A stretch of 64,000 nucleotides of DNA from Macrocystis pyrifera (lineage: Eukaryota; Sar; Phaeophyceae; Laminariales; Laminariaceae), in NCBI GenBank assembly GCA_031763025.1, contig JASSKH010000017.1:2503924-2567923 (forward strand), written 5' to 3'. Every line of letters begins with the position of its first letter. Within the stretch, counting starts at the first letter, position 1. Under the pieces are notes generated by a model. It saw only the letters and a program-made list of their open reading frames with translations, was not told the DNA's origin and did no database searches. A program made the position numbers and the translations under genes. This document shows positions 1,621-13,500 of this stretch, piece after piece.

Positions 1621-3160
1621 CCGTTGCGAGACGACAACATACCGTACCTCGGGGTAGGGACACTGGTCGCGTGTGCCCTTGTGTCGCATTGTGTTAGCTA
1701 ACCCTAAGACCCTAAGCGACAGGATGGCGTCGTGTTATTTGGAATTCCAGTCGGCGAGCGGGCGATCGCAGGGAGGGGTGTGAACTCATGTACTCATGTT
1801 ATACATGGCCGTAGTGGCATTGGGTGGGGGGGGGGGGGGGGGGGGACTTGATATCACGCATGGCCGTAGTCGCATGACCATAGGGGGGGGGGGGGGGGGG
1901 GTACTCATTATCTGCATTATCTGGGGGGGGGAGTCCAAACAAAGGAACTGAGACAATACGCCCGGTGTCGCTTGTTTTTGCGTGGTTGCTTCTTTTTTTT
2001 TTCTACGCTTTTGTCGGCTGCTTCGTTTTGCTTCTTTTATTTCTAGCTCTTTTTATCAAACCCTTTTTGATCTGCACTCTTCTTGTCTTTCGTCTGGGTA
2101 CGTTTATGTCAGCCATCAGCTGGAACTAGGACTGATCGTACTCGGCGCGCGCCCTCAGCGTTTTTTGTCATCATTAGTATTTTGTGTTGTATCTTCCCTT
2201 TCCTTGTTGCCATTTTTTCTTAGGGTAGCCTCAGGCCTCTTTTTTTGTTCTAATTGTTGTTTTTGTTGTATATTTTTTGTTTGGGTGCACGCATGATACA
2301 ATGGATGTGTTCTCGACTGATCGTACGGGGAAATAGGAACGTCGTCCCCTCGGGACTCGGCCTACGCTCTGCCTACAAGTTTGTTTTTGTTCCATCTGTT
2401 TGTCTATGTCGTTTTTGTTGGTTTTTTGCCTTTCTTTGTTGCCTTCTTCGCGCTTCTTTACGTTTGGTTCTTAGTTTGTTTTTGTTTGGGGGGGGGGGGG
2501 TGTACGCATGATACCGTGCATGTATTTCTCGTGGTATGTCGTTGCTCGTCACTGGGGTTTCGAAAGAATCTGGTAGGAACCCAAAAATATTTCTTGGAAG
2601 GCTGGGAGGCCTGACAAACTCGACGAAAACAAACACGAAGGCAGCATGATCAGCATCTTGAACAATCCACTTGATGCGCACCAAGGGAGGACCAAATGGT
2701 CCTTCGCTGTCACGTATGCAAGGACACAAACCGTTATTTTTTTTTTTCCCCCCAGGAAACGTTAGTCGTTTAAACAATGTAAATCTGGGAACACGAAATA
2801 GCAACTACAATGGACGAACGATTGAAGGCGTGAACGCAGGGGAGGGACCAAAGAAGACCGCCCTTCACACGTAATCCATCTGAACCACGGAACAACTGCC
2901 AAGATAAAGCTGCGTACTGGCGCAGCCTAGTGGAGAGCTATACGGCGAGAAGAAGTAGGTTCCTGGTATGCAATACACGTATACTCGCCGAGAGCACCAG
3001 TATATTACACAGTACAGAGAAACTCGTCATATTGCGCCCCCCCCCACACCACCCAAACCAAAGGAAAATATAACACGAACAAACAGGCAAGTGTCGTACA
3101 GGGGCAAGAGAGACGGGGGCGCTACGTACGATATATGAGTACTTGTCTCCCGCAACCAAC
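1621..3160. other. Gene-free, T-rich low-complexity DNA
   Basis: No convincing coding sequence. The stretch holds two poly(G) tracts near 1826-1846 and 1886-1902, with remnants of the family A tail (ATGGCCGTAGTCGCATGACCATAG-like sequence) around 1805-1885. A T-rich region follows at 1975-2500, whose apparent ORFs are rich in Phe, Leu and Cys and reflect only base composition. Confidence 0.6.
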
Positions 3161-6100
3161 TTAGACCCGTACTTTTAACCACTTCTGATAAAATAAGTGC
3201 CCAACAACATCGGTCGAAGGCGGGCGCGCATCACCAGCCGGGGGCGGGGGGTGGCTGGCTCGCGTCTTTGCCGCGCGGTAACGCCAGGATGGCTTCGCCG
3301 CAACACCATATAGGACAAATATAATGCTTGGTATTATGGCCGCTGATTTCACAGTATGTTGTAGTACTGACTGCGCTAGACAAGACCCAGCTCTGAAAAA
3401 AAATAGGACACCCCAAATCCAAACCGGCCTCTGCTTTACAAAGATTGCAGCTATGTCTTCCCTGCGTGTCGTAACTATCAATAACGCCAGAAGGACAGCG
3501 CGGCAACAGAAGGCACCTTGCGAGTGGTCTGCCCGCTTGAACCACAACAGCTGCTTGTGGTCGTCGCAGTACTTGAAATGAGTTACCAGCCTCGCACGCG
3601 CCGCTTCAAATCCGCGGGCAGGGGGTTCACACTTGCCCGCGATGATGCTGCCAGCCTCTGGATCGTCCTCCGACGCTCCGGCCGACCCCACCCAGTCCGA
3701 TACCGCCTCCATCTTGTCCAGACCGTTCATCATCTTGTGTAACATGTTGTGAAGGATGCACGCCGTGAACCACGCGTTTGTCGATTTTTTCTCGTGAGCC
3801 GAAAAGGACGCCGCATTTGAAGAGCCTCCATCGTCCTTTCAACCTGCCGAAACAGCACTCGATGTCTTTGCGTACACTCTCCACCCGCCTGCTCCAGTTA
3901 TGCTCCGCGATGGTTTTGTGTGTTATCATCGGCGGAATGAGAAGCGGGATCTGGTGTACAGCGAAGCAGAGCAGCGAGGGTGGGAACGATGGAAACGTGG
4001 GGTATGGGAGGGACGCGAAAATGAGTCCCGGGGCGGAAACCAGCCGAGGTGCATGGCGCGAACAAACGATAGTTGCATACATCGCACCCTCCTGAAAACA
4101 ATGAAAACACGCACGTGAGATACGTGCATATATGCTGCGAAAAAAATGCAACAGTCGTAGTGCCGTGGTGGAAGCAATTGTGTTCACGTTATTTGGTGCG
4201 TTATAACGGCAAACAACACCAAAATACATCGACGTCGGCGGATGCCATTCCTGGCGGGCGTGGGAGGGGGGGGCGGGGGCGGGGGGAGGGGATACTCGCG
4301 TCATGCATGGCCGTTGTCATATAACCATAGACCCTCGCATCGTGCAATGCCGGGACGGAGCACGTCGGGTGGGTGATAAAACAGCACAAGCCCTTCCACG
4401 GAGCGGAAAAGTACGCACGGCGCCGCACCGTTTGATCACGAAAAACTCGAAACCACACCGCATCGGAGTATGCTCAGAAAACTCGTACCGCACCGCACGA
4501 GGAAAATACGCACCGCATCGTACTGCCGTACTGCACGATTTTCAAGCTACGAAAAGCGTTCCACACTGCACCGTATCGTATGGTTCACAACGGATAGAAA
4601 CGTCAATCGTCCCGCCGTGCGACGTTAGAACGTTCAAAGCCTTTAAAAAAAAAGAGCCGATGACGCGAAATAAAGCAGTTGGATCTTGCGAGTTTTTTGT
4701 CGGTGGCCTGCATGAACCGACAGCTAAACAGAAGTCCCACTCCTATTCAACAGGCGTTACGGTGAAACATCACGACGGCCACGGCTGTTATAAAAACAAC
4801 ACCACAGCCGAAAGCACGGAGGCTCTGAAGGGTACGTAGGGTATCGTCGGGACAGCGCGGTGCCGATGCAGGCTCTGTACACACTTTGTGTCGTAGGGAA
4901 TATATTATATGTACACAGCGCACTGCCAAAACAAGGGCAATCTGCCTTCATTGTGGCGACTTCCTTTCTTTGCCAGGTATGTATAGGTGCTCAACTCGTT
5001 TGGGAGTACCTGGAGGATGACGAATAATTAAGTTCAGAGAGACACCCAAAAGAAAGAGGGCACCAAAAGAAACACACAAAAATTAGCTACGACGAGTACC
5101 TGGAGGGATTTGGCGGGTTTGGGAATTTAGCGGGGGGTGTCGGCAGGTTGCGTGGGTTGGAACACATGTAAAAGGCCCCAGCTGACATCAGTGAACTCCG
5201 TGTGCAATTACTGTAGGAACGCGACTTACTTTCGGATACCCCCCATCGACGATAAGCCAGGCGCCAGTGTAGTCCGTTTCAGATCCATCCGCGTTGCGCA
5301 GCTTGTACGGAAAACTTTTCCAAGGCTCCTCGTCTTGGATTCGCCAGATAGACTCGTCGCGCGCAATGACAGTCTTATCATTCTCGGCCCCGGGGTATGA
5401 CTTCGTAGCGGCGATTATGCGGCCAGAGTGGTCACAAGTAGCCTCGACTACGACTGACGTATACCCCTCTTTTGCCTTGGTGGATGCTCCGTTCCGAGAA
5501 CGGTGTCGCCTCCCACTTGAAGTGGGTGCAGTCCACGGAGCCTATGGCACCGGGATAACCACACTTGCGATATATTTCCTCGACTCTCTTGAGCTCCTCA
5601 CCCTCGGGAAGGTATACCCACGTATCCCACAGCGCCTGCGAGAACTTCTCGCACAAGTGGTGGAAGGATGCTTCCGCAGTCTGCCGGCTCATCCGAGTAA
5701 AACCATGGATGTCCTTGAAGCAGTTTCCTCCCCCCAAGACTTTCAGCACTGACAGCACCTGCACCCGCATATCGGAACAATGAGATAGAATTGGTGTGAT
5801 ACGTGCACCAGCGACGCACGAATCGTCAAAGCTAAATAACATACGCATGCGTATGTGTGCCAAATTGACTATTTTTGCACATCGGCTTTTTTTCTTCTCA
5901 TCCGGCCGGGGCTATTTGCTCGTGCTCTCGGCCGCGGGGCACGTCGTGCGCGCTCTGGGGGATTAAAGGCACGAAAACTACTACCATGGTAAGTAGTTAC
6001 AACGGCGAGCTGTTTCCGCCGAGCCAGAGCCTGCCAGGACAACCCAAACCCCACATTTGCGATTTGGATATTTTTGCTCTGCTGCTGTGTCACGCTGTCC

Positions 6101-7707
6101 TTCCAGCTCCCAGGATTTGTACATTGAGGCAGGCTCCGTACAACAGCAGTCGACAATCAAGCACTTCCCTTTTTGACGGTGGCGAACCACGCTTTTTGCG
6201 TATATGCGTGTGTATGCCATGATCCCTGTTTTTCTAGGAAATCGGAACGAACGCATACCGGTATCGTAGTCTCAAAGAGCGAAGGCAGGACGATTGAACA
6301 TACCGCCTCCGAATTCCACAGCAACCCGCAGCCACGGGATACACTCCTCCTACAACGACAGCAGCGGTACAACGCCAGTACAATGGCGGTGCATTTGCAT
6401 GCGGCAGCGTCAACAGCAGTAGTCCAACAACAGCGGTAGCCCAGCACAAGCGCGTCACGCTCTCGTCTTTGTGACAGCCACGGTGCTTACGTCTTTGTGT
6501 GCGCAGTGACCAGAGCGTGGTGCTCGTGGAGGTGTAATATTGTATTCTGCTGTACAAGGTGTGTGCACGTACGAGTACCAGTACGTAATTTTGTGTATAT
6601 GCATGTACTGGTAGAGGTTAAACGTGTACTCGGCACAAACCGGTCGGACAGGTTACAGTTAGAGTAGTAGCGTCATATATATGTTGTATTCAAGCACACG
6701 GGGGACGTGCCGTGCACACCAGTACTCACTAGTGCACGTCAACACGCCTCGCTGCCTGCTGTAGTCACCCTTCTACATCAGTCTAAGAACAATAACAAAC
6801 TTTCATTCCAAGGCAAGTGTCCCCAAATACGAGGATGCAACGCATGGCCGACGAGATGGCGTACAGCTGTGCGGCCGCAGCAGCTGCTGTACGCGCGTCG
6901 TCTGTCCTTCATCAACTGCTTGTGCATACGTGCCCCACAGAGCTGGCAGCTACCTTGTGCAGCGCACCCAAAATAGTCAGTACTGCCCGTTGCCCGTACT
7001 TGCTGCGCTGTTGCACTCAGGGTTGATGCGTCGGCTCTTCTACAGCAGTACTCTAATACCGATACGAGTGGAAAAAAGCAGGAAAAAAGAACTCTACAAT
7101 CGGAAGACGAAAAATAACAGCCGAGCGCAGTACGTACGAGTACCGAGAGCCACGTGAGCACTTAGCTTCCAAGGCATCAATGTAGGACATCGTCAGAAAC
7201 GTTAAAGGCATGACGATACAACCAGCCTACCAGGATCACATACCCGCTAGTCTACACGCACCCCGTACCTTCAGTTTCAAGGGGGACGCACTCCCGGCCC
7301 GCTACGTCGTGAGTATCACATGTGAAGACCGATTTGCCCGTCTCCACCAAGGACACGAAGACCTCGTACGGTACACGGAAGTGCTCCACGAATCTCACAG
7401 CGTCTCGGCAGTCTGGATCAATCCCACCAGCAGCAGCAGCAAGCTCCCCTAGCGCCGTCAGCCACCGTCCCCACTCCGACTCCATGTACTCTGGTCGCGG
7501 GTACGACCGCCGTGTTTCCTTGGGTTTCTCGGCGTCTTCTTCCTCGCCCCAAAAGTCTCCCATCGCATCCAAATCACCGCCCCCGCCCAGCCCATCGTCG
7601 TCATCGTCGTCCAACAAGAAACTATGAGTCATACTCTGCAAATGGGTGACGGCGGCAGCAGCAGCTGCCATCACGGCCGCCGTCCGTTGAGCATCATCGT
7701 CCGACAT
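3161..7707 (-). pseudogene. PIF/Harbinger-type DDE transposase, three exons, frameshifted
   Basis: This is a cut-and-paste DNA transposase of the PIF/Harbinger (HARBI1-like) family. Exon 1 (7707-7269) has an Ala- and Asp-rich leader and the N-terminal helical motif FRVPYEVF. Exon 2 (5758-5230) has VLSVLKVLGGGN, the first catalytic Asp in GSVDCTHF, the second in PGAENDKTV, and ends in GGYPK. Exon 3 (from 3950) carries PPMITHK and the catalytic Glu in DIECCFGRLKGRW, followed by ILHNMLHKMM. Splice signals are GTACGG and GTAAGT donors and CAG acceptors, all phase 0. Exons 1 and 2 each have one surplus base: in the G5 run 7281-7285 and the T4 run 5470-5473. A third surplus base in exon 3 lies at the T3 run 3777-3779. 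All three catalytic acids are present. The reading frame runs to a stop at 3161, but family similarity fades near 3540. It is either a decayed copy or a sound gene with assembly indels. Element ends were not identified. Confidence 0.85.
4265..4372 (-). repeat. Dispersed repeat family A, partial copy
   Basis: A G-rich run at 4265-4290 is followed by CATGCATGGCCG, CCATAGACCCTCGCATCG and GGGACGGAGCACGTCGGGT, the tail-proximal part of family A in the same orientation as copy 1. Downstream, 4380-4640 is a patchwork of CACCGCAC-like short repeats with no coding signal. Confidence 0.65.
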
Positions 7708-7993
7708 AGTGTGCGATGGGCTGGCGATGGCTGTCGGTGTGTGTGATGCGGCCTAACCTCAAGGTGACGCCGCACAAAGATCGGCCTGAGTCTTCCTCAA
7801 GCCGATCTTGGCCCAACATCGGCCCCAGATTTGCTTTTTTCGGGATTTTCCCAAAGTTGGGAACTTTTTTTTTTTCTGAACGTGCCCATACATAGGAAGC
7901 GTGTTCTAATTTTTTTTGGCGGGGATCTTTGGAATTCAAACTTTTTATTGATACTTCGGGTTGCCATTGGCATAGGTCTAAGTGTGTTATCTG

Positions 7994-8380
7994 TAACATA
8001 ATGTTATGTGTTAGTAGTGCTGGTGAACATGGTAAAGTTATGTTAGGGTGTTATGTATAACACTCCTCCTAAGGGTAACATTGTGTTACCTCTAGCGCAG
8101 CGTCGACATAACATTATGTTATCGTGTTAGTAAATATGCGAATATCGATCTGGACATGTTAGAGTAATAACGTACAGTACGTGTTTGGTAAAGCCTAACA
8201 CTGTGTCACGGTGTTAGTTCAAGGACTGATCACGGCATAACATAATGTTACTGCTGTACCAGAGCTGGACGAGACCGAGCAGCAACGTAACGTTAAGGCT
8301 CGTGCACGTTCGTGGGTTTCCAGTTAACACTGTGTTACCGCGGGTACCGTGATCGCTCCTCTGGTGCTAACACTATGTTA
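7994..8380. repeat. Array of seven 13-bp palindromes, consensus TAACAYWRTGTTA
   Basis: Seven copies of a near-palindrome with arms TAACA/TGTTA start at 7994, 8076, 8109, 8196, 8238, 8325 and 8368; the copy at 8196 has one arm mismatch. Spacings are 82, 33, 87, 42, 87 and 43, so the sites fall in pairs with a period of about 115-130 bp. Extra half-sites (GTGTTA, TAACG) lie between them and on to 8450. The array starts about 290 bp upstream of the transposase exon 1 start at 7707. Dense short inverted sites near a DDE transposase suit subterminal transposase-binding sites or operator-like sites, but the function is inferred. Confidence 0.7.
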
Positions 8381-8507
8381 GTACGTTACCACGTTCCTGT
8401 GTTAGGCCCCATAACGTAGATAAGTGTTATCCGAGTGTTACGTTATCCGAGGTGTGCAATTTTTACGAATTTGGACTTGATTTTTTAACACAAGTTCATG
8501 CACTCAC

Positions 8508-10182
8508 AGGCCGTTTCCTATGCGGTTCGATTTTTGAGCTTCAGATTCTGAGCCGATCGCATTTTCAAAATTGTGAACTTGGCAAATCGAAACGGTCTTG
8601 CTGAACAATTAGATTTATTGTGCGTGCAGAGATTCTATTACGGGGGTCCATAGTTAATGGGACCAAATTTTGTTAGTAAAAATCGGTAAATATATAGTTT
8701 TTTATGTATACCATAGGTCCTATTAACTATGGACCCCCGTAATAGCAAACGCCGAGACCAAATGCTGTTGTTGTGGTTTGGCGCCGCGAAGAGACGCGCT
8801 GGGTGCGCTGCCCTGCGCGTAGGACCCAAGCGTCCGAGCCAAGGCCGACTGCCTCTGGTCTGGCGGCGAAGAGACGTGCCGCGTGCGCTAGAGTCAACCT
8901 GTCTTGGTATTTTGTGTTTCTTAATGTGACTGGCTGCTGCTGCTGCTGATGCTGTACAGCAGTGTAGTCTACGAGTACGTATCCACGGAGAAGTACGCAC
9001 GGAGTGCGCTTCTCTTGGTCTCTAAGCCCGGGCCCGCGCCAGCCGACTGTAGGCTGGCCATGGAGGGACGCGCCGCCCGTCACCCGCCGACCGCGCGTCG
9101 GGCGCGAAGCAACGTCGCTATACAGCTGTGTCACCATCCAACTCGTCGATCGTTCTGCTGCTGTTTGCTGTCGTGGATAACATTTTGAATTTGGAGTGCA
9201 TTCCATTTTTCGATTAGAGAATCTGATGACCCAAGTCGTCGGATTTTGGCTGACCCAAGTCGTCGGATTTTGGCCCAAAATCTGACGACTTGGGTCATCG
9301 AATTCTCAAATCGAAAAATTCCAGTCGGATTTTACATATTTGGACTGCATAAGGCCGTTTCCTATGCGCTTCGATTTTTGAGCTTCAGATGTTGACCCGA
9401 TGGCATTTTCAGATATGAACTTGCCAAATCGAAAGAGTCTTCCTATGCGGAAAAATCAGATTTATTGTGCGTGTATAGATTCGAGCAAACGCCGAGACCA
9501 ACTGCTGTTATTGTGGTTTGGCGCTGGGAAGAGGCGCGCTGGGTGCGCTGCCCTGCGCATAGGACCCAAGCGTCCGAGCCCACGCTGACTGCCTATGGTC
9601 TGGCGGCGAAGAGACGTGGCGAGTGCGCTAGAGTCAACCTGTCTTGGTGTTTTGTGTTTCATTTTGTGACTTGACTGCTGCTGCTGTACAGCAGTGTAGT
9701 CTACGAGTACGTATCCATGTAGAGGCGCGTGCCGAGTGCGCTTCTCTTGGTCTCTAGGCCCGAGCCCGCGCCAGCCGACTCTAGTCTGGCCACGGAGGGA
9801 CGCGCCGTCCGCGCGTCGGGCGCGAAGCAACGTCGCTATACAGCTGTATCACCATCCAACTCATCGATCGTTCTGCTGCTGTTTGCTGTCGTGGATAACA
9901 TCTTGAGTTTAGAGAGCATGCCATTTTTCGATTTGAAAATCTGGCCCAAAACCCGACGACTTGGGTCATCAGATTCTCAAATCGAAAATTTTCCGGTCGG
10001 ATTTAGCATATTTGGACTGCATAAGCAGGGTCATTCATTTTTTCATTTTTTAGATCGAAAACTACAAATCTGAAGCTCGAAATCGAACCGCATAGGAAAC
10101 GGCCTAATAAGCAGGGTCATTCATTTTTGGGATCGAAAAATACAAATCTGAAGCTCGAAATCGAACCGCATAGGAAACAGCC
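8508..10182. mobile_element. Nested non-autonomous inverted-repeat element with internal duplication, family D
   Basis: A terminal motif of about 38 bp beginning AGGCCGTTTCCTATGCG and running into TTCGATTTTTGAGCTTCAGAT occurs direct at 8508-8546 and 9352-9390, and inverted at 10067-10105 and 10144-10182. Between them a block of about 740 bp is present twice (roughly 8500-9350 and 9352-10020). Shared stretches include AACGCCGAGACCAA, GGACCCAAGCGTCCGAGCC and GTCTACGAGTACGTATCCA. The start, ACAGGCCGTTTC, resembles hAT-type ends, but no target duplication was established. No transposase is encoded. A family B MITE interrupts the first duplicate only. Confidence 0.6.
8638..8742. mobile_element. 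MITE family B, copy 1 (105 bp, TA target duplication)
   Basis: This is a near-complete hairpin. Its ends are TTACGGGGGTCCATAGTTAA and the inverse, and TA flanks both sides (8636-8637 and 8743-8744). TA duplications and hairpin form fit a Tc1/mariner-type (Stowaway-like) MITE. Other copies lie at 18340, 22709, 23231, 25831, 39953 and 53335. It encodes nothing. Confidence 0.9.
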
Positions 10183-10984
10183 TCACCGACGCATTGAGTG
10201 TCGGCCCGCTATTGTTTTTTTTTTCATTTTCCGCGAAATTATACCTCTCCAATAACCCAACTAATAGAAAGGCGATCAAAATTGGTAAAAAAACTTAAAA
10301 ACTGATAACCTGGTAGGGCGGTAGGTCCGACACTCCATGCCTTTGAAACTTCAGCGCAAAATGTAAAAAATTGAGCGGGGCATCGCAGAAACGCCTTTTT
10401 TTTTCCTAATTACTTTATTTATATACTGAAGCGAGTTTTGGTAACATCTCGTGATGGGTGGCGAATCGGGCAACAAGACTTGCAACGATCTCCTTACGCC
10501 CTCAGCACTTTCTCTACCAATTTTCGTCTTGATCGAAAACATTTTTTTAATACGAATTTTGTGCAAGGTAAGTGGTGTTGTTGAGTTGTTCCGGACATCT
10601 GGGCGAACACCGAGCCCGAAAAAAAAAAAATGTTAGAATTTGTCAGGTACTGCTTTTTTTTGCACAAGCAGCAGGGGTGTGTCAGGGTTAGTGATGCCAA
10701 CTTTTGTAGCCTAATTTGCAGCGGTTCAGGAGATACGACTTGAGGAAGCTCTTCTCCGTTTTATGGCTGGCCCAGCTCGTACGCGCAGCTTTTGAAGAAG
10801 GGTTTGACGGCAAACAGGCCAACACGCACAACAACGCTGCGGGGTAGGTGTTTGTATGGAGAGAAAGCGTTCGAGTGTATGATGCGTACGAGTACAACAG
10901 AAGCACAAGCGGTGTAGAGCAGAGCGAACACTAGCGTCGCCCACAGGGCGGCTACCGCGAGCATTATCTTCGGTCACCACTCTA

Positions 10985-12005
10985 ACGATCTCAAGCTCCG
11001 ATGAACGCAAACTCTGACTAGCTCAAGCTCTTGTGAGCGCAAGCTTCGATGAGCGCAAGCTCTGATGAACACAAGCTCGGACGAGAGCAGACTCTGATGA
11101 GCGCAAGCTCTATTGAGCGCAAGTTCTAATTAGCCAAGCTCTGATCAGCGCAAGCTCTGACGGATGAAGTCCTCATGAGTGCAAGCTCTGACCAGCGTAA
11201 GCTCTGATGAACGCAAGCTTTGACGAGTGCAGGCTCTGACGAACGAAAGCTCTATCGATCGCAAGCTCATGATGAACGCAAGGCCCGAAGAGCGCAGGCT
11301 CTGATGGGTGCAAGCTCTGCTGAACGCAAGCTTGGATGAACGGGATCTTTAATGAGCGCAAGCTGATCAACGCAAGCTCTGATCAACGCAAGCTCGGATG
11401 AGTGTACACTCTGACCAACGCGCAAGCTGTGACGAGCGCAAGCTTCGATTAACGTAGCCTCTGATGAGCGGAAGCTCCGATGAGCGGAAGGTCTGGTGAG
11501 CGGTAAGCCCTAATAAGCGCAAGCTCTTGAACAACCCAAGCTCTGATGGAGTGCAGACTTTGACAAACTAAACCTCCGATGAGCCCAAGCTCTGATCAAC
11601 ACACAATTCAATGAGCGCAAGCTCTGATGAACGGAAGCTCTCGCAATCGCAAGCTCTGATGGAGTGCAGACTCTGACAAAACGAAAGCTCTCATGACTGC
11701 AGGCTCTAACGAACGCAAGTTCTGAAGAGCTCAAGCTACGATCAACACAACCCCTGTTGGGCGCAAGCTCTGATAAACGCAAGCTTCAGGCTTCGATGAG
11801 CTCCAGCTCCGACGAGCGCAAGTTCTTATGAGCTCTAGCTCTGATGATGATGGGCCGAAGCTTCGATGAACCCAAGCTTCGGACTTGCGCAAGCTCTGAC
11901 AAGCGCAAGCTCTGATGGTGCTCAACCCCTGATGAGCGCAAGCTCTGGTGAACGCAAGCGCTGGTGAACAGAAGGAAGCTCCGATGAACGCAAACTCTGA
12001 TGAGC
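10985..12005. repeat. Minisatellite, about 20-bp unit, roughly fifty copies
   Basis: A tandem array of degenerate copies of GAGCGCAAGCTCTGATGA with variants (GAACGCAAGCTCTGAC and others) fills about 1 kb. The minus-strand ORFs across it (repeating SELAFIRA-like peptides) are products of the repeat. The unit contains AGCTCAAGCT-like self-complementary cores. Confidence 0.9.
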
Positions 12006-13500
12006 GAGTGCCTAAAAAAACGCGCAGGGTTTTACCCTTGGCCTTTGCATGGACACGCTGACCGCGGTCTATTGTTATGGGTCGGCTAACGTTGTAAATC
12101 AGAACCCATGACGGACACAAAAAACCGGTACCCCCCTGTGTTTATACGCCGCATTCGGTTCCGATTGCTATGTTCTCCCGGTTAAGGTGGCATCGCATTT
12201 TTTTTCCCCCCTTTCTGTTTTCTGAAATATAACAATTCGGGGTGGGGCAAACACCCGAAACTGAACTGTTTTGAGTAGCGTATCACCAACGCCAAGAGCA
12301 AACGAAAAGCGCTGAGACGAACATGAACAGGTCTGATACGCGTCATCTTCCATCAAATATACATCTGGTTCATTGTGCCTGGTGTACTTGAGCAGGTACG
12401 GGTACAGTACCGAACAGAGCGTTGAGTGCACACAGGCGCAGAAAGAGGTGATGCGGTCGTGTTTCGGGCGCTCGATTTTTTTTTAGAACGGGAGGGTTTT
12501 GCCGATAATACCGAACAGCAAAAGTGTGTGTTGTCTTTACATTAAGTCGTCCTTCCTGCCCAGCTTCATCAGTACACCCAGTGTCCGTCCTGATTCCTGA
12601 TCCTAAGAGAGATACTAATTCTGTGGTCACAGACTGCTGTGAGACAGAGGAAGACCAAAAACAAAAAATAATCGCAACTTCAAGGATCAAGCAAATGAAA
12701 TGCTAGCGTACCGGGTACGAGAACACAACAATACAAGTAAAACCAGAAACAAAATAAAAAAGACAACGAAACAAAAAAGAAATGAAACATAATACAATTG
12801 ACGCAAGGAGAGCAGAAAGGCTGCTAGACGGAAAGCGCACGTACTCAGGAAGGACAGATAGCTGCCGCACGGACGAAGCAACACGAAGGAGAGGAAGATA
12901 CCGGCATACATACGGACGGCGGGGCGGGGAAAGGAAACAAAGGGAGAGACAAGGCAAAAAAGAAGAGCATCGTACTCCAGGCGGTGATAGTAACATGGGT
13001 GCCTGTCTCTGCTAGAAAATCGATTCGGGAACCTAGCCACACCGTTTGCCGTCTCCTTCCTACTCTCGTCAATAGCGGTGCCAAGTGTCAGTGCTGCCGC
13101 TGTCGCGCCCCCCCATTGGACAACAAGAAACAAACAAAAATCTTCTAGACTTCAAGAGCTAGTCGAACCGATACCTAGCCACCCGATCTATCATTTCGTT
13201 TCTGCATTTGTCGACAGCTGTATCAGTACGGCTGCCCCCCCCCCCCCCCCCCTCCCCAAAAGATTCGGTGGAGAGAGTTTTTTTTTTTTTTTATCATCAC
13301 TTTTAGTTTCCAGCTTTACTCGTAGGAGGTTCTTACCCACAGCGCAGGACAGACCGTGGTCACAGGTGTCGTCCCTTCTCGCCCCCGATACGTGCCTCCA
13401 CCACTATCGCGCATGGGGTTCAGCATTCCCACCGCTCGTCGATTTTCATCGAATGTTGCTATTAATAACTCACGCTCACGCGCTCTCCGTTAATCAATTT
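12006..13500. other. Gene-free stretch before the ARID gene
   Basis: No exon could be supported. It holds A-rich DNA near 12710-12800 (shadow ORFs on the minus strand), and a poly(C) run at about 13231-13252 followed by poly(T). The missing first exon or exons of the ARID gene could lie here or further upstream. Confidence 0.4.

Follow-up and report, generated by a model that had tools for sequence, protein, structure and literature searches.

A stretch of 64,000 nucleotides of the giant kelp Macrocystis pyrifera (C197:2503924-2567923, called the window below) holds a cluster of 13-bp palindromes next to the 5' end of a Harbinger-like transposase gene. The question raised by this locus is to which element the palindromes belong, and what such an array may be for. 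All genome-wide counts given here cover the assembly of 537,376,219 bases in 223 contigs.

A cluster of palindromes in the window

Exact matches to the palindrome TAACAYWRTGTTA were found at six places, namely 7994-8006 and 8238-8250 (both TAACATAATGTTA), 8076-8088 (TAACATTGTGTTA), 8109-8121 (TAACATTATGTTA), 8325-8337 (TAACACTGTGTTA) and 8368-8380 (TAACACTATGTTA), and near-exact matches at 8196-8208 (TAACACTGTGTCA, one mismatch) and 8033-8045 (a weak site with two mismatches), none of them assigned to a strand. In the whole 64 kb no exact TAACAYWRTGTTA was present outside 7980-8456. When up to two mismatches were allowed, the window contained 12 matches where 3.86 were expected, a number reached by none of 100 shuffles, and with weaker sites included (at least 8 of the 10 core letters) there were 10 sites in 500 bp, where 200 simulated sequences averaged 0.7 and never exceeded 3. 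An earlier, sequence-only reading of this DNA had counted seven palindromes between 7994 and 8380; the array is real, but 'seven' is slightly overstated, as six sites fit exactly and the seventh carries a mismatch. The start-to-start steps of those seven (82, 33, 87, 42, 87 and 43 bp) agree with the alternating spacing that had been described, whereas the period of about 115-130 bp that had been derived from it has to be replaced by an underlying pitch of 42 bp in the element family (see below).

The border with the Harbinger-like element

The pieces of the Harbinger-like transposase gene lie on the minus strand at 3627-7707, next to and outside the array element, and comprise a match to DDE_Tnp_4 (3627-4304, below the curated Pfam cut-off), a match to Plant_tran (5432-5863, above the curated cut-off) and an N-terminal reading frame without a Pfam match (7252-7707). 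The 5' terminus of the element, reading inward GACCTATGCCAATGGCAACCC, was placed on the same strand at 7958-7978, of which we infer the exact edge, and the adjoining TAA at 7979-7981 is likely the 3-bp target duplication of Harbinger. The genome was searched with window positions 7240-8000, and of the 1,859 candidates from the first look 40 were scored, one of them being the window itself. Near full-length matches were obtained for 13 of the 39 others (94-98% identity) and matches to the last ~205 bp only for 26 (93-95%), and all 39 stopped at query positions 740-747, i.e. at window positions 7979-7986, where the array begins. Harbinger thus ends at about 7978, and the array lies outside of it.

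This result bears directly on the proposal of the sequence-only reading that the array is part of Harbinger and holds subterminal sites for its transposase or partner protein, or autoregulatory operators regulating it. The array does adjoin the Harbinger 5' end, and passages of PMC12730594 describe Harbinger lineages (Nuwa) that encode a Myb/SANT partner. Nevertheless, we give the proposal next to no credence, given that the array ends in a terminus of its own at 8456, that the array element stands alone elsewhere in the genome and that the array was absent from all 39 other copies scored, an outcome that the same reading had itself named as speaking against it. Its idea of transposon binding sites is supported in kind, as far as we infer; their owner is not Harbinger, but another element, the end of which they form.

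On its left side Harbinger could be followed with window positions 2200-4400, for which 40 of 1,464 candidates were scored. Here 13 other copies matched, 12 of them starting at base 1 of this query and the remaining one at base 53, so that these copies run at or near window position 2200 without ending; no left end was located, and the length of Harbinger is therefore probably at least 5.8 kb. Repeated copies thus cover window positions 2200-4400 and 7240-7979. Those on C9, C20, C40 and C95 are situated ~20-23 kb from the palindrome cluster of one large repeat, and many are therefore probably not independent. A second Harbinger-like copy, inverted, is found ~8-14 kb before the window (C197:2490222-2496054) and is 98% identical in both stretches compared.

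The array is one end of a non-autonomous transposon

The array occupies ~477 bp at 7980-8456 (minus strand) and its outer edge at 8456 is formed by a 16-bp terminal inverted repeat (TIR), CACACCTCGGATAACG as read on the minus strand (8441-8456). Directly beyond lies CAATTTTT (8457-8464, no strand), a candidate right copy of an 8-bp target duplication of which the left copy was not seen. This region shares 96% identity with the corresponding end of one complete copy elsewhere in the genome (L038) and 94% with that of another (L037). On its inner side it is cut off at the start of Harbinger, and the inner remainder was not found in the window. As judged from this junction, Harbinger most likely inserted later into the array element and thereby cut off its inner part.

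Genome-wide, the palindrome TAACAYWRTGTTA was found at 4,955 places (61 for the reversed control), and the first 15 loci listed (~12 distinct places) all belonged to one repeat family by BLAST. The TIR CACACCTCGGATAACG had 389 and 375 exact copies on the two strands, 764 in total, where the reversed control had none on either, and among 100 TIR places listed many formed convergent pairs 1.6-2.1 kb apart. One copy, L031, is a stand-alone element of ~2 kb running from CACACCTCGGATA to TATCCGAGGTGTG, with one difference in the TIR at one end; in L036, L037, L038 and L039 the TIRs were exact at both ends. Duplications of 8 bp were observed at both flanks of L036 (GAAGTTTG) and L037 (CAACTTTG), and with one mismatch at those of L038 (CAATATTT/CAATATTG) and L039 (CAAACTTC/TAAACTTC), and the members of an older subfamily (L018 and relatives) have CAAGTTTC at both flanks; in L031 no target duplication was seen. 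The flanks of L036 and L039 are alike in opposite orientation (96.6% and 97.3% identity over 149 and 148 bp), indicating a single insertion event, and the L018-type loci, which were always seen within the same larger repeat, were counted as one event as well. The four independent events (GAAGTTTG, CAACTTTG, CAATATTK and CAAGTTTC) yield the target pattern nAAnnTTn.

The TIR ends were also counted by flank, 72 being preceded by TTTG and 78 by CAAA-N4. A convergent CAAA-N4 partner within 15 kb was found for 44 of the 72 TTTG-flanked ends, against 5 in a divergent and 3 in a same-strand control, an excess as predicted by an 8-bp duplication. Of these 44 pairs, 26 measured 1.55-1.68 kb and 6 measured 1.83-1.98 kb; the former cluster likely goes back in part to a single insertion that was multiplied as part of a larger repeat, and the 44 pairs are therefore not all independent. 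The longest open frames in the two copies examined were 85 aa (L037) and 107 aa (L038). We conclude that the array is the end of a non-autonomous TIR DNA transposon of ~1.6-2.0 kb that makes 8-bp target duplications and in which no coding capacity was seen. The size of the duplication places the element outside PIF/Harbinger, for which 0-3 bp is given in passages of PMC12730594.

Several copies are embedded in other repeats. Loci L016-L030 and L032-L035 are long repeats, at most filling all of the ~9.9 kb retrieved, with array sequence at a fixed position, indicating larger units that multiplied after insertion of the array. A Pfam search with eight frames of the larger repeats that hold old copies returned one weak match only (UL78, E 0.01, below the cut-off), which was taken as chance. 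The flanks of L037 (L037:1-150 and 2030-2179) are mutual inverted repeats over 62 bp (96.8%), so the insertion of this copy probably split another inverted-repeat element near its centre.

The surroundings of the array in the window are rich in other repeats too. At 8508-10183 inverted ends (AGGCCGTTTCCTATGCGG) surround a body with a direct duplication at a step of ~720-740 bp (8744-9225 and 9484-9943), which looks like another pair of TIR element ends. Within it, at 8635-8745, there is a small element whose inverted ends of 30 bp (CTATTACGGGGGTCCATAG...) are 97% complementary; relatives of this element were seen by eye inside L036 and L039 and beside L038. Positions 10992-12006 are a minisatellite (62 copies of the 16-bp unit CAAGCTCTGATGAGCG), and 12529-12964 is a copy of a ~435-bp repeat that also occurs inside older array elements (e.g. 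L019, 5453-5887), with about 79-83% identity where copies matched full-length.

A tripartite unit and a pitch of 42 bp

Alignment of the units of L037 on the palindrome revealed a third half-site, which extends the motif to TAACA-nnn-TAACA-nnn-TGTTA (21 bp). This tripartite motif was found 2,608 times in the genome, as compared to 2 for the control. Exact palindrome pairs with 1-30 bases between them numbered 744 per strand genome-wide (0 in the control), and among 50 such close pairs listed, 48 were 42 bp apart from start to start and two 43 bp. The palindromes thus do show a spacing preference, the absence of which had been put forward earlier as an argument against an ordered array.

The same pitch is found within elements. 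In five complete copies and the window, which are related and therefore not independent, a gap of 42 bp was the commonest (38 times), followed by 85 (8 times) and by 8, 43, 60 and 84 (5 times each). Rayleigh tests for a period of 42 gave values of 1.9e-5 (L037), 4.7e-5 (L031), 0.03 (L038), 0.006 (L039), 0.02 (L036) and 0.009 (window). A period of 41 also gave low values in some copies and did better than 42 in L036 (0.004), and for a period of 10.5 bp four of the six sequences gave values under 0.03, the exceptions being L031 and the window, where it was not significant. Among nine older or diverged copies the commonest spacings were again 42 (20 gaps) and 84 (13 gaps), with a Rayleigh test for period 42 that was significant in only one of them. 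Since a unit spans two helical turns and a step four, successive units would face the same side of the helix.

The sites are spread over most of the element, and not just over its ends. Between copies, differences were found at 63 of 870 half-site positions and at 443 of 5,171 other positions, so that conservation of the half-sites exceeds that of the remaining positions only slightly and no strong constraint after insertion is visible. L037 carries an inverted internal copy of its subterminal region at element positions 513-535 (L037:663-685), where the orientation of the units switches, and its layout is as if it were built of three arms.

Comparison with known elements

Target sites of hAT elements follow the consensus nTnnnnAn. 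Like these elements the array element makes 8-bp duplications, but its pattern, nAAnnTTn from four independent events only, is a different one, and so are its TIR sequence and its motif. Further likenesses to hAT elements (Hermes; maize Ac/Ds), as far as these are covered by the passages of the sources cited next, are a short TIR, non-autonomous derivatives and multiple short motifs inside the ends. Passages of PMC10368747 describe how the BED domains of the Hermes transposase cooperatively bind a quasi-palindromic subterminal pair, the exact phasing of which is argued to be crucial, and passages of PMC3260210 describe binding of the Ac transposase to AAACGG hexamers in the terminal 200 bp of Ac. 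The array element differs in that its 42-bp pitch is fixed, that each unit comprises three half-sites and that sites run through most of its ~1.9 kb, and no hAT gene was found inside the 60 TIR pairs of its family that were examined.

Some features are shared with the KDZ group, for which passages of PMC12730594 give 8-bp target duplications (Zisupton) and CA..TG ends (Kyakuja), and the members of which, according to passages of PMC12477816, are numerous and of giant size in the brown alga Ectocarpus. No palindrome array is described in those passages of the two papers. The KDZ domain PF18758 had no match in the kelp genome, with a control that was likewise without a match (0 of 14 genomes), and the same holds for the P-type RNase H domain PF21787 of the P element (0 matches; control 0 of 14 genomes).

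The TnpA sites of En/Spm, direct and inverted 12-bp arrays bound by a protein of the element, are another possible parallel. Both En/Spm, a CACTA element, and the array element have site arrays and CAC..GTG ends, but CACTA elements make duplications of 3 bp where 8 bp was found here (CACTA ends and duplications as given in passages of PMC12730594). Also brown-algal is the giant Sola-1 element of Ectocarpus, for which passages of PMC12477816 propose an accessory ParB-like methyltransferase that binds and modifies the element's own DNA; an array is not described in them, and the word 'subterminal' is absent from the text of that paper. ParB_N (PF02195) was not found in the kelp genome at E 0.001, although its control was positive in 10 of 14 genomes. 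This argues against a ParB-type binding protein for the array, and the candidate was rejected. No comparable phased array was found by title or abstract opening in the open literature, a scope outside which most subscription papers fall.

Search for an autonomous partner

The hAT dimer domain (PF05699) was present in none of 60 convergent TIR pairs (pairs from 225 TIR places listed; 150 of 317 hAT candidates scored). At C200:11612264-11617385 a match to this domain is situated 4,966 bp inside a TTTG-flanked TIR, without a right end with a matching duplication among those listed; one such proximity was seen where 0.5 was expected, which is near chance. The interiors of three larger TIR pairs were sampled: one contained a frame for a reverse transcriptase (PF00078, E 1.3e-26), another non-coding DNA adjoining array sequence, and the third a frame of 85 aa that looks integrase-like by eye and has no Pfam match. 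With these contents the three pairs were rejected as autonomous copies. A 22-base TIR pattern had no match in the viral contigs.

Possible roles of the array

In the explanation that we consider probable, the array forms the last stretch of a non-autonomous DNA transposon that was later cut by Harbinger, and its phased sites serve for the binding of a transposase or a partner protein. The sequence data show the identity of the element, its termini and target duplication, the enrichment and the pitch of the sites and the near lack of similarity between spacers; binding by a protein would be the most likely function of such a helically phased array. A dimeric or multimeric protein with at least two DNA-binding domains per assembly would find the units in register, and this protein would most likely be the transposase of an autonomous relative or its accessory protein. 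Binding of the units on one face of the helix may then be cooperative and build up a complex for transposition, as is the case for hAT transposases on their subterminal repeats. Counting against this explanation are the location of known subterminal repeats, which are near the ends where the array covers most of the element, and the lack of an autonomous partner in the pairs examined. The small difference in conservation between half-sites and other positions, the slight excess in spacer similarity and the Rayleigh results for the older copies and for L036 count against it as well.

It is possible, though doubtful, that the gene-less element is as a whole little else than a scaffold of phased tripartite sites on which a protein filament or complex nucleates. 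This could be an extended transpososome, or else a decoy and regulatory platform that titrates transposase. The spread of the sites beyond the ends is in line with an array that the element has captured or retained for a host factor, and not for a transposase, and so is the presence of a second recurring block, GGATAACGTA. The host factor could be a protein of replication, of silencing or of chromatin, or a Myb-like factor recognizing TAAC. Such a host array is unlikely in our view: among the 15 loci first listed (~12 places) no site was found outside the family.

Quite unlikely, too, is an origin of the pitch as a relic of unit duplication without function, i.e. a decayed 42-bp tandem (satellite-like) repeat. 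To compare whole units, 18 of the 26 sites of L037 were used; of the other eight, one is that of the TIR, two overlap, two are weak and three belong to the second copy of an internal duplication. Pairwise identity was 80% in the half-sites, a figure that is partly by construction (units were selected on two of the half-sites and oriented by the third), 46% in the 3-nt gaps and 27.4% in the spacers, the latter unaffected by the choice and close to the 24.9% (sd 0.7) of shuffled spacers. The units of a satellite would be alike over their whole length between neighbours, and decay would erode half-sites and spacers equally, whereas these spacers are nearly unrelated (0.274 versus 0.249, sd 0.007) and the half-sites are not (0.80). 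The change of unit orientation along the element and the near-constant pitch of the close pairs listed argue in the same direction. On the other hand, L037 contains a duplication with a 216-218-bp step, its two arms differ by one 42-bp step as read from the unit alignment, and the small spacer excess leaves room for a decayed tandem origin.

Very improbable is a function of the sites as hairpins or RNA structure: a 900-nt stretch read as RNA does fold more stably than its 20 shuffled versions (z -5.2), which is what a large number of complementary half-sites would bring about, but a lone 13-mer hairpin reaches only -1.1 kcal/mol as DNA, two units of 44-45 nt fold at z -1.1 and -0.3, and the open frames are no longer than those given above for L037 and L038.

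A phased array bound by a transposase or its partner would extend what is argued for Hermes, where the phasing described in passages of PMC10368747 concerns one end and tens of bases, to a four-turn pitch over nearly 2 kb. The large natural family (764 exact TIR copies and 744 close pairs) is a record, in sequence only, of a possible arrangement of transposase or partner on DNA. If the whole element does serve as a scaffold for a filament, its 21-bp unit and 42-bp pitch would represent a new type of transposon architecture. In brown algae, the transposons of which are called largely unclassified in passages of PMC12477816, an abundant DNA transposon family of giant kelp is hereby described, and its TIR and unit provide a probe for the autonomous element.
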